Source of the DNA: a virus
Direction: 5' to 3' (one strand)
IMG/VR virus record: IMGVR_UViG_3300047300_000222
Span: 1 to 30,012 of that record
Length of the DNA: 30,012 bases
Position numbers and translations under genes: made by a program. Position 1 is the stretch's first letter. Every line of letters starts with the position of its first letter. Positions 3,292 through 9,861 of the stretch are shown here, piece by piece. The notes beneath the pieces were generated by a model. That model had not been told where the DNA came from. It saw only the letters and a program-made list of their open reading frames with translations, and did no database searches.

Positions 3292-3749
3292 TTGATTTCA
3301 ACCACTAGGTTCCCGTTTGATCTGATGTAGTCTTTGGTTTTTTGAATGTACTTTTCAAAATCTGCCCTTGGAATGCTAGATTGTTGAAGGTCTGCATATT
3401 CAAGTAGTTCTCGCACGGCTTGGATACCCTCACCCGTTAAACCCATTCTCATCGTCTTTTGATAGCGTTCGGCTGCCTGGTGCAATGCATCTTGGGCTTT
3501 TTGGCAAACAGGCATGACCTCATCTTTTCCGATATTGTGCCTAGCCATTGTTTCGGATAGGTTTAAAACGTCAACAAGGGTTCTCCAATCGTGGATAGTC
3601 CCGTTACCCTTCGTTAAGGCTTCTAGGGCTGAATATTCCATCAATCGGAGCTTATCTAGCTTATCTCGGTGGGTTATTGATGCACCAACTACGGCATGGG
3701 CTATCGGGTCTATCAATGCCCAAAACTTGCGTTTAGTTCTTTTTCTCAT
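3288..3749 (-). CDS. conserved hypothetical phage protein, 153 aa
   Basis: A basic N-terminus (MRKRTKRKFWALIDPIAHA) is followed by a long helical body (NIGKDEVMPVCQKAQDALHQ, RMGLTGEGIQAVRELLEYAD). I recall proteins of this shape in Burkholderiales phages and prophages, all without known function. No catalytic or DNA-binding motif is obvious, though the first nine residues are strongly basic. It overlaps the upstream gene by 17 bp and the downstream gene by ATGA. The start at 3749 is supported by family-like length rather than by a strong ribosome site. Confidence 0.75.
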   Translation of the reverse strand: MRKRTKRKFWALIDPIAHAVVGASITHRDKLDKLRLMEYSALEALTKGNGTIHDWRTLVDVLNLSETMARHNIGKDEVMPVCQKAQDALHQAAERYQKTMRMGLTGEGIQAVRELLEYADLQQSSIPRADFEKYIQKTKDYIRSNGNLVVEIK

Positions 3750-3978
3750 TTTTTTCTTTTAACTTGTACTCTACAAGCCTTGCCACAGCAAACATATCGC
3801 CATAACCATAATCGCCTGATAAATCAGTACTTGGGATTAAATCGCTTATTTCATCAGCAGATAAACCCTCCCAAAATACAGCAGGTCTTTCACTAGGAGG
3901 CAAACTTCTGCCACAAAAATGTTTATAAGAGTTGCCGCATTTGCAAACCCATTCAACCATTCCATCTAAGCTATTCAT
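3733..3978 (-). CDS. small Cys-containing accessory protein, 81 aa
   Basis: ATG 3978 is chosen: AAGGAG lies 7 nt upstream and the start overlaps the previous stop as ATGA; the frame extends to 4017 without a better start. The N-terminus has a short zinc-knuckle-like stretch (WVCKCGNSYKHFCG). The C-terminal half (GLSADEISDLIPS through ARLVEYKLKEKN) resembles the end of the neighbouring 3975-4319 protein (GLTDEEIWELM, AVEAKLKEKN). The two therefore share an ancestral C-terminal module. Function unknown. Confidence 0.7.
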   Translation of the reverse strand: MNSLDGMVEWVCKCGNSYKHFCGRSLPPSERPAVFWEGLSADEISDLIPSTDLSGDYGYGDMFAVARLVEYKLKEKNEKKN

Positions 3979-4319
3979 GTATTTTTCTCCTTGAGTTTGG
4001 CTTCTACTGCGCGGCATAAATCAGTCTCTAAGACATTTCTGCACATCAACTCCCATATCTCCTCATCCGTCAGCCCAACCCATTTGCGCTGTGGTGGATT
4101 TGCAAAAATAGGCGTATCAGTTTTAGTATCCCAACCAATCAATATTCCTTCACCAGCAAGTTTTTTTTCTGAGTTCGCCAATGCCTCTTTAATAGCGATT
4201 GTTGCCTTTTCAATTTCTGGCAAATGTGTCTTTCCTTTCGGGATGTAGTAGCCATCAATGCAACTGTTTGCCACTTCCAACGCCTCTAGCGACATCTTCA
4301 ATGCTTCTTCTTTAGTCAT
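3975..4319 (-). CDS. modular early protein (Ead/Ea22-like), 114 aa
   Basis: Three modules can be read: an N-terminal MTKEEALKMSLEALE helix, a middle with IEKATIAIKEALA, and PIFANPPQRKWVGLTDEEI leading to a C-terminal AVEAKLKEKN tail. This combination is typical of variable early-region phage proteins, often labelled Ead/Ea22-like, whose pieces are shuffled between genes. The same N-module occurs at 6292-6741 and 6738-6839, the PPQR junction at 6292-6741, and the tail at 3733-3978. Both ends overlap neighbours as ATGA. Molecular function is unknown. Confidence 0.75.
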   Translation of the reverse strand: MTKEEALKMSLEALEVANSCIDGYYIPKGKTHLPEIEKATIAIKEALANSEKKLAGEGILIGWDTKTDTPIFANPPQRKWVGLTDEEIWELMCRNVLETDLCRAVEAKLKEKNT

Positions 4320-4823: not shown

Positions 4824-5252
4824 TTACTCCAAGCACTCTTTCACACAAATATCAACGCCTGGTTCACTAGAAAACACCTTCGTAACATGAATGTTGATGA
4901 TCTGCGAATCATCATGGTAAACAACCCCATTCATGCCATCCTCCACTGATTTCAAAATATTTGACGCATCGGGCTTCTTAATTGGTTTCTCTGACCCATC
5001 GGCAATGGCTTGTAGGCGCTTTTTGGTTGCTGATGCGGGGATAGGTACTCTGATGTACAGATACAGGCTTACAGGGGTTTCTAAAGGCTCTGAGCCGCCC
5101 ATTGCTTGTCTAGCTGCATCCTTAATCAAGGTTTCATAGGTTCTTGTTTTCTCAGGGGTGTAGGCTTGGACAAAGTTTCCCCTTTTGACATACCTTGCTC
5201 GACCCTTGGGGACTGGTACGCCATCTACTTTGAATGTCACCATGAATGTCAT
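4824..5252 (-). CDS. rusA: RusA-type Holliday junction resolvase
   Basis: 142 aa, a usual length for RusA. The N-terminus has the family opening VDGVPVPKGRARYV followed by AYTPEKTRTYE. The metal-binding region is KKPDASNILK and, further on, GVVYHDDSQI. In E. coli RusA three aspartates and a lysine are essential; here the first (KPD), the lysine (ILK) and the DDSQ aspartates are present, but the position two after the first Asp is Ser instead of Asp. RusA cuts four-way junctions as a dimer and would resolve replication or packaging intermediates. Start at 5252 overlaps the upstream stop as ATGA. Confidence 0.9.
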   Translation of the reverse strand: MTFMVTFKVDGVPVPKGRARYVKRGNFVQAYTPEKTRTYETLIKDAARQAMGGSEPLETPVSLYLYIRVPIPASATKKRLQAIADGSEKPIKKPDASNILKSVEDGMNGVVYHDDSQIINIHVTKVFSSEPGVDICVKECLE

Positions 5253-8772: not shown

Positions 8773-8948
8773 TGAAATCATTATTTCAAACCTATGTGGA
8801 AGAATTCTCAGAAAACCAATACTGTGGCTATTGCTTAACACTCAAGACACCAAATTGTTGCGAATATAGCTACTATGTTGAGTTCAAGGATTTAACCCCA
8901 CCTGCACAACAAAAAATCATCAATCAAGAGTTAGATAAATATCTTTAA
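8772..8948 (+). CDS. small Cys-rich protein, 58 aa
   Basis: The ATG at 8772 overlaps the previous TAA (TAATG) and the frame ends TAA 8946-8948. It begins MKSLFQTYVEEFSENQYCGY and carries CGYC followed by NCC, four cysteines within 16 residues (CxxC...CC), a possible zinc knuckle. The tail (PPAQQKIINQELDKYL) is helical. Exact packing between two genes and codon use like its neighbours support it. Function unknown. Confidence 0.7.
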   Translation: MKSLFQTYVEEFSENQYCGYCLTLKTPNCCEYSYYVEFKDLTPPAQQKIINQELDKYL

Positions 8949-8958
8949 AGGAGTGAAT

Positions 8959-9621
8959 ATGAGTTCATACACACAAGACCCGCAACAATCAGGACTCCTG
9001 GTTGACCGCAAAGAGTTAATTGAGAAGTTGTTGGCAAAGAACGTCAACGAGCATCTTGAGAAAAAGAATGGCCTATCCTACCTATCGTGGGCATGGGCAT
9101 GGGCAGAAGCCCTTAAAGCTGATTCTAGCGCCACTTACAAGATAGAGATGTTCGATGGCAAGTGCTTCATGGACATTAACGGCACAGCAATGGTATTCGT
9201 TACTGTGACCATGTTTGGCAAACCAATGACTTGCCAATTGCCCGTGATGGACTACCGAAACAAAGCCATTCCTAAACCAGATGCTTTTGCGGTCAATACA
9301 GCCATCATGCGTTGTATGACAAAGGCTTTAGCTTTGCATGGATTGGGACTCTACATATACGCTGGTGAAGACCTCCCAGAAGAGGGTAAATCAGTCGTTA
9401 TCACACCTACTCAGGGTGCAACAGACAACATTCCTCAAGAGGAATTACAGTACTTGCAAGAGATGGCAGTTGATCTGATTGCCATGTGTGAGCAAGGTGA
9501 TCCCAAGGCAGCTTGGGTTAAGTTGGAAGAAGAGAACCTAGACGATCAACAAAAGATTGCTCTATGGACTTTGCTTCCCAGTAAAGTAAGAAGTGCACTT
9601 AAAAAGGCGAAGGAGTTTTAA
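8959..9621 (+). CDS. DUF1071 (Sak3-like) single-strand annealing protein
   Basis: 220 aa. ATG 8959 follows AAAGGAGTGAAT with 5-nt spacing; the in-frame GTG at 8953 lies within that site. Residues about 25-140 carry the family pattern: NGLSYLSWAWAWAEALKA, then VTMFGKPMTCQLPVMDYRNK, then FAVNTAIMRCMTKALALHGL and GLYIYAGEDLP. DUF1071 proteins are Rad52-like annealing proteins represented by Sak3 of lactococcal phages; they anneal complementary single strands during phage recombination. The C-terminal third (after about residue 150) is helical and less conserved. It is directly followed by the SSB-tip protein, a typical recombination pair. Confidence 0.88.
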   Translation: MSSYTQDPQQSGLLVDRKELIEKLLAKNVNEHLEKKNGLSYLSWAWAWAEALKADSSATYKIEMFDGKCFMDINGTAMVFVTVTMFGKPMTCQLPVMDYRNKAIPKPDAFAVNTAIMRCMTKALALHGLGLYIYAGEDLPEEGKSVVITPTQGATDNIPQEELQYLQEMAVDLIAMCEQGDPKAAWVKLEEENLDDQQKIALWTLLPSKVRSALKKAKEF

Positions 9622-9861
9622 ATGGAAAAGAAAAATAACGCTGGTGTTTTGTTCAAAAGTGACAAAAAAGAAACACCTAATCACCCTGATTATCGCGGGA
9701 ATATTACTGTTGATGGCAAAGACTATTGGCTATCAGCATGGATTAAAGAGGGCAAGAAGGGTAAGTTTATGGGTTTGGCAGTAGCGCCTCGTGACCCTGA
9801 ATACAAGCCATCAGAGCGTTCTAAAGCAACGAACTTTGATGACGACTCGATGCCATTTTAA
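9622..9861 (+). CDS. small protein with SSB-like C-terminal tip, 79 aa
   Basis: Starts immediately after the annealing protein stop. It reads MEKKNNAGVLFKSDKKETPN, then HPDYRGNITVDGKDYWLSAW, then KGKFMGLAVAPRDPEYKP and ends NFDDDSMPF. The central 40 residues are strand-rich with the G(N/S)I-x-VDG-x-(D/E)YW-(L/I)S-(A/G)WIK pattern of a widespread uncharacterised phage family. The end closely resembles the DFDDDIPF tip by which bacterial SSB recruits partner proteins. A small single-strand binding or host-recruiting role is inferred from the tip and from the position beside a Sak3-like gene. It is shorter than usual SSB (about 170 aa). Confidence 0.75.
   Translation: MEKKNNAGVLFKSDKKETPNHPDYRGNITVDGKDYWLSAWIKEGKKGKFMGLAVAPRDPEYKPSERSKATNFDDDSMPF

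Follow-up and report, generated by a model that had tools for sequence, protein, structure and literature searches.

Bacterial single-strand DNA-binding proteins (SSBs; PF00436), such as that of Escherichia coli, carry a tip composed of acidic residues, a hydrophobic residue and Pro-Phe behind a variable linker, and the C-terminal domain of the annealing protein Redbeta binds SSB. Tip-bearing phage SSBs encoded beside genes for annealing proteins (SSAPs) are likewise known. In phage HK620, an SSB of ~21 kDa (DUF669) is paired with Sak4; removal of its last six residues (NDYPPF) was shown to abolish the binding of Sak4 to SSB-coated ssDNA, and these residues are needed for most of the stimulation of Sak4 (PMC5928155). 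Similarly, concatemer formation by phage 80alpha involves the paired action of sak and ssb (PMC5499656). The Enc34 SSB (PF10991), the structure of which was reported in PMC5686142, represents another phage SSB, with an OB fold and a profile of 176 positions. SSAPs of different families have been found to possess common C-terminal domains related to that of Redbeta, and the name Sak3 has been given to the SSAP_Sak/DUF1071 family (PMC8093625).

In the window analysed here, a virus record of 30,012 bases, the minus strand carries head and lysis genes; on the plus strand, a small operon at ~8.3-11.4 kb contains a gene for a 79-residue protein (MEKKNNAGVLFKSDKKETPNHPDYRGNITVDGKDYWLSAWIKEGKKGKFMGLAVAPRDPEYKPSERSKATNFDDDSMPF) with the C-terminal end KATNFDDDSMPF (Table 1). 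The gene upstream, which starts at a GTG (8953) or an ATG (8959), encodes a member of SSAP_Sak, formerly DUF1071, so that the name Sak3-like used in the initial annotation was appropriate. The same annotation had placed the 79-residue protein behind the annealing gene without a gap, which is correct, as the sak stop codon (9619-9621) abuts the ATG (9622-9624) and the likely ribosome-binding site lies inside the upstream gene. The locus consequently has the arrangement of an SSAP-ssb module, with ssb directly beside the SSAP gene. RNA structure predicted across the sak/ssb junction was no more stable than that of shuffled sequences (z 0.18), a promoter scan scored under the shuffled expectation, and a PADLOC search returned no match. 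As in HK620, a candidate SSB is thus encoded beside an annealing protein, yet both the core family and the SSAP family differ from those of the HK620 pair.

Elsewhere in the window, a plus-strand gene (914-1552) encodes a 212-residue protein which matches PHROG 3007, labelled RusA-like resolvase (E 6e-30), and also PHROG 947, a DNA polymerase processivity factor (E 4.5e-7). Since a separate RusA-like gene is located at 4824-5252, the PHROG label of the 914-1552 product may be wrong, and the protein may instead resemble a sliding clamp.

Table 1. Features of the sak-ssb region in the window
Feature	Position	Strand	Basis
Sak/DUF1071 (Sak3-type) annealing protein	8953..9621	+	PF06378, E 4e-41; PHROG 659, E 1e-49
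Annealing core of Sak; sister phages have an unrelated Erf core instead	8959..9396	+	DNA homology
74-residue C-terminal domain common to Sak and Erf types	9397..9618	+	Window Sak compared with L104 Erf
Likely ribosome-binding site AAGGAG, within the 3' end of sak	9610..9615	+	Read from the sequence
Candidate minimal phage SSB of 79 residues with SSB-type tip	9622..9861	+	ORF with ATG start; PHROG 18154/7364
Core, residues 7-56, four predicted strands	9640..9789	+	Alignment, AlphaFold2 model, column counts
Variable linker, residues 57-70	9790..9831	+	Low column information, low-confidence model
Tip NFDDDSMPF (acidic run, hydrophobic residue, Pro-Phe), like the bacterial SSB C-terminus	9832..9858	+	Family counts, profile alignment

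The 79-residue protein was found to match PHROG 18154 (E 5.7e-15) and PHROG 7364 (E 3e-9), each of which bears the description single strand DNA binding protein, a label that the family also bears in many GenBank records; Pfam and NCBIfam yielded no model for it. Comparison by tblastn with named phages identified 118-140 records, including phages of Vibrio, Erwinia, Escherichia, Acinetobacter and Pectobacterium, while hundreds of relatives were present in IMG/VR (at least 553 confirmed stretches), the family comprising at least 222 distinct complete members. The initial description of the family as widespread in phages is thereby borne out. It was also described as uncharacterised, which, within the literature found, is correct with regard to experiments but not with regard to annotation, as the family is already named in PHROG and GenBank. 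ORF24 of VpV262 is noted in GenBank as 'similar to single strand DNA binding protein C-terminus' and the VP2 member as 'similar to V. cholerae SSB'; as both notes cite likeness to SSB, the former explicitly that of the C-terminus, the existing ssDNA-binding annotation may have been derived from the tip alone.

VpV262 ORF24, VP2 p29, phiEcoM-GJ1 gp15 and the members from Acinetobacter and Erwinia phages share both sequence family and tip with the window protein. In the named phages of PHROG 18154/7364, the gene is mostly located beside PolI/helicase genes or in early regions and often encodes a longer linker, whereas the window form is short and directly follows Sak. In the PolI-type lytic phages, the family gene is positioned beside or near genes for DNA polymerase, helicase or primase. 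DUF736 was rejected as a parent family (weak matches in six of 66 members, the best at 0.003 and below the cut-off wherever bits were given; profile-profile probability 0.8%). Pfam matches to 'Tower' and CTD6 were also under the cut-off, and matches to the Shiga toxin B subunit (E 0.2-1) represent a short common β-hairpin stretch at chance level.

For an assessment of the SSB-type acidic tip, ORFs were gathered with a core-only profile, after which their natural ends were read. A PF end was present in 212 of 222 distinct complete relatives, with three or more acidic residues among the last ten in 209 of these 212; in a further five of the 222, the acidic PF motif is present but is extended by a short stretch. 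By comparison, 14 of 7,463 other ORFs from the same loci end in PF, a single one of the 14 being acidic. As some loci had originally been found with tail-containing patterns, the count was redone for loci fetched by core patterns only, in which the acidic PF tip was present in 46 of 46 cases. All of the 17 named relatives that were read also have an acidic PF end, in many cases DFDDDIPF, while the tips of sak/erf phages vary (DSDLPF, DEDVPF, DESMPF, DDSMPF). The Pro codon is CCT, CCC, CCA or CCG in 88, 43, 41 and 40 cases, respectively, and the Phe codon TTT or TTC in 113 and 99 cases, with all three stop codons used after the tip across the family. The family alignment thus upholds the conserved SSB-type tip of the initial annotation; since the linker varies, the Pro and Phe codons are free, every stop codon is used and the counts far exceed those of the controls, the tip is under selection at the protein level.

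Several loci with deviating ends were also identified. In L009, LELPF is found in another frame, which points to a frameshift. L080 and L215 contain relatives without a tip, that of L080 (2489-2674) being 62 residues in length with a full core and preceded by a D5-like primase gene in place of an SSAP gene. Phage ctah5458 (L092) harbours adjoining family copies (3521-3770 and 3766-4002), the first of which is tip-less and the second of which ends in DDDVPF. In the Vibrio phages VP2 (L088, 4001-4477) and K292 (L090, 4001-4480), two cores and one tip are combined in a chain of 158-159 residues. The VP2 protein ends in KYNEPPMDFDDDIPF, near the canonical SSB tails of viral contigs L369 and L379, and the protein looks as though it had acquired the tail of a host SSB by grafting. 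In Vibrio phage VpV262 (L085), a non-family ORF (3569-3965), located just 5' of the family gene and missing from the RefSeq feature table, ends in DNDIPFDDDIPF, a tandem pair of SSB-type tips.

When a family profile (66 members) was compared with a bacterial SSB profile (12 Burkholderiales sequences), the alignment was confined to the last 11 residues, and the Pfam SSB model (PF00436) matched none of the 66 members. The tip is the only recognisable similarity of the family to bacterial SSB, and the window protein, with 79 residues, is also much shorter than the sampled Burkholderiales SSBs (~150-240). From 31 Burkholderiales SSB loci sampled, 30 gave a tail ending in DDIPF, from which the DDDSMPF of the window deviates; as one relative is located in a Burkholderiales MAG contig, this difference in tips is only suggestive. 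Because of this departure from DDIPF, binding of the window tip to host partners is uncertain. No PF00436 SSB was detected in 24 related virus records and 17 named phages, in a search whose control gave matches in 10 of 14 genomes. Searches for Enc34-type and DUF669 SSBs gave no match, although these are uninformative, as their controls were equally silent.

The body of the protein had been called strand-rich, in agreement with the AlphaFold2 model (window protein plus 66 relatives), which consists of four strands (residues 7-12, 24-30, 33-44 and 47-56) and no helix. Confidence in this model is moderate (mean pLDDT 72; core ~83-85), and the linker and tail are modelled with low confidence and no secondary structure. 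The linker is the least conserved part, with low column information at most of positions 59-71, while P22, G26 and W40 are invariant in an alignment of 66 diverse members. Basic residues outnumber acidic ones only slightly in the core (mean K+R 9.4 versus D+E 8.0). An OB fold, which the initial annotation had proposed to predict, gained no support: the model did not show one, and Foldseek gave no significant match, OB folds included, between the single-core model and the PDB.

The best leads agree with one another, albeit below significance, in pointing to the class of PC4 and PUR proteins. Among the 50 matches listed by the VIA structure comparison, the best two were AcrIIA22 (7jta; Z 3.7, rmsd 4.0, 48 residues) and Borrelia Pur-alpha (3nm7; Z 3.7, rmsd 3.7, 49 residues), with T5 PC4 (4bg7; Z 2.8, rmsd 2.7, 44 residues), other PC4 and Sub1 entries and two Whirly proteins also included; unrelated proteins tie at such Z values. 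PC4 ranked first among solved structures in a single-sequence phmmer search (E 0.32, not significant). For the two-core VP2-type protein, the AlphaFold2 model is of low confidence (mean pLDDT 66); its best three Foldseek matches were human PURA (E 0.07-0.1, not significant), and avidins led its VIA comparison (Z 3.1). AcrIIA22 has four strands and resembles PC4 but lacks the usual helix, its nearest relative being the SSB-like PC4 of T5 (PMC8545432). T5 PC4, AcrIIA22 and PUR domains are, like the predicted core, small four-stranded sheets in phage or nucleic acid-binding proteins. In contrast to PC4, however, no terminal helix is predicted for the window protein, and Pfam PC4 (PF02229) gave no match at E 0.1 or better in the 66 members. 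PC4 homologues from which a profile for direct comparison might have been built were not found in 60 Burkholderiales genomes. A PC4/PUR-like fold of the core is consequently to be taken as a lead only.

Gene neighbourhoods were compared for 247 viral loci, all of which include 1.8 kb or more of upstream sequence. An annealing protein belonging to one large cluster is encoded upstream in 218 of these loci and an Erf of a second cluster in a further 11, while a YqaJ/RecE-like exonuclease is encoded in 111 and an HNH endonuclease in 23. The HNH genes, as in L060 (1992-2489) and ~22 other loci, are inserted between the annealing gene and ssb, and probably encode homing endonucleases.

The large annealing cluster was shown to consist of Sak (108) and Erf (126, by profile-based classification) proteins, which thus occur upstream in similar numbers and are joined by their C-terminal part. 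Comparison of the window Sak with the Erf of L104 (1872-2498), the core of which was identified by PF04404, revealed identity at 67 of 74 C-terminal residues, whereas the N-terminal parts could not be significantly aligned. The same Erf arrangement is seen in 43 other loci. This 74-residue C-terminal type, for which no match of its own was found in the PDB or PHROG, is joined to a Sak core in 77 cases and to an Erf core in 44; further C-terminal types likewise pair with both kinds of core. In 37 of the 44 Erf loci, DNA homologous to the window was present on both flanks, the annealing core alone differing; in most of these 37, homology stops at ~8940-8976 and restarts at ~9393-9406. As the flanking DNA is homologous and the core is not, the C-terminal domain and ssb have been kept while the core was exchanged. 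Since this domain and ssb stay together, and since the equivalent part of Redbeta is an SSB-binding domain, it represents the best candidate receptor for the tip, although physical linkage alone could produce their co-inheritance.

Either a minimal SSB or a decoy had been considered in the initial annotation. The former, which PHROG 18154/7364 and GenBank already imply, is the best reading: the 79-residue protein is probably a minimal phage SSB, the tip of which serves to bring in the annealing protein and perhaps also partners of the host SSB. A core of ~55 residues, all-β and probably oligomeric, would coat phage ssDNA, and a flexible linker would present a copy of the bacterial SSB tip, allowing partners to dock onto the coated DNA. 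The first of these partners would most likely be the annealing protein encoded upstream, bound via its C-terminal domain; the exonuclease, where present, may be another, and host SSB-binding proteins may be drawn in too. This predicted division of labour, in which the core coats DNA and the tip hands it over, follows the HK620 SSB-Sak4 (PMC5928155) and 80alpha sak-ssb (PMC5499656) pairs.

As a decoy or adaptor, the protein would bind little or no DNA and its tip would hijack or titrate RecO, PriA, Exo I, RecQ or DnaG, so that host SSB-binding proteins are pulled off the host or towards phage intermediates. Such a role agrees with the tip being the sole part that resembles SSB, with the DFDDDIPF-type tips of most enterobacterial and vibrio named phages and with the near-canonical tail of VP2. 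Nevertheless, the positions that are invariant or nearly so lie mostly in the core, which would be dispensable for a protein that only carries the tip, and the tips of sak/erf phages drift while those of the sampled Burkholderiales SSBs stay DDIPF. Moreover, the family gene holds the SSB position both in polymerase/helicase phages and in recombination operons, without a PF00436 SSB in the genomes searched, which makes a decoy unlikely.

An accessory role in annealing was also judged improbable. The protein would then be a small, non-coating loading or clamp subunit of a Sak/Erf-exonuclease complex, which binds the SSAP C-terminal domain and presents the SSAP to DNA coated by host SSB, as the very tight linkage to SSAP genes and the few types of SSAP C-terminal domain would allow. 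However, PolI-type lytic phages have the same family and tip although no SSAP gene is annotated in the vicinity, and the SSAP is therefore not the sole partner. Finally, a small classical OB-fold SSB might have been missed by prediction if a partial OB barrel is completed on dimerisation; the AlphaFold2 model is of moderate confidence only, and the Enc34 SSB appears at Foldseek rank 25, although not significantly. Against this, four strands and no helix were again predicted for the first core of the two-core VP2-type model, and with no Pfam SSB match among the 66 members and a bacterial SSB profile that aligns at the tip alone, an OB fold of this kind is very unlikely.

With regard to the minimal SSB reading, the presence of the family in databases and the existence of tip-bearing phage SSBs beside SSAP genes were already known. 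As far as the literature shows, four points are new: the tip has been tested systematically, it proves to be the sole likeness to bacterial SSB, the core is tiny and does not look like an OB fold, and Sak and Erf cores are exchanged at the nucleotide level while the C-terminal domain and SSB stay fixed. We tentatively raise the further possibility, which we consider doubtful, of a distinct non-OB class of SSBs, in which a PC4/PUR-like core of ~55 residues gained the bacterial SSB tip independently and the tip is read by a C-terminal adaptor of the SSAP, with Sak and Erf cores being swapped over this adaptor, which is retained together with the SSB.

If the minimal SSB reading is true, the protein would, to our knowledge, be among the smallest SSBs known, and the SSB tip would act as a portable docking code on unrelated DNA-binding cores. 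The natural Sak/Erf swap over a common C-terminal domain offers a direct route to mapping the tip-reading site of SSAPs. As the dependence of SSAPs on the SSB tail restricts recombineering in species other than their own hosts, a matched SSB-SSAP pair with so small an SSB could be a practical tool in laboratory strains.
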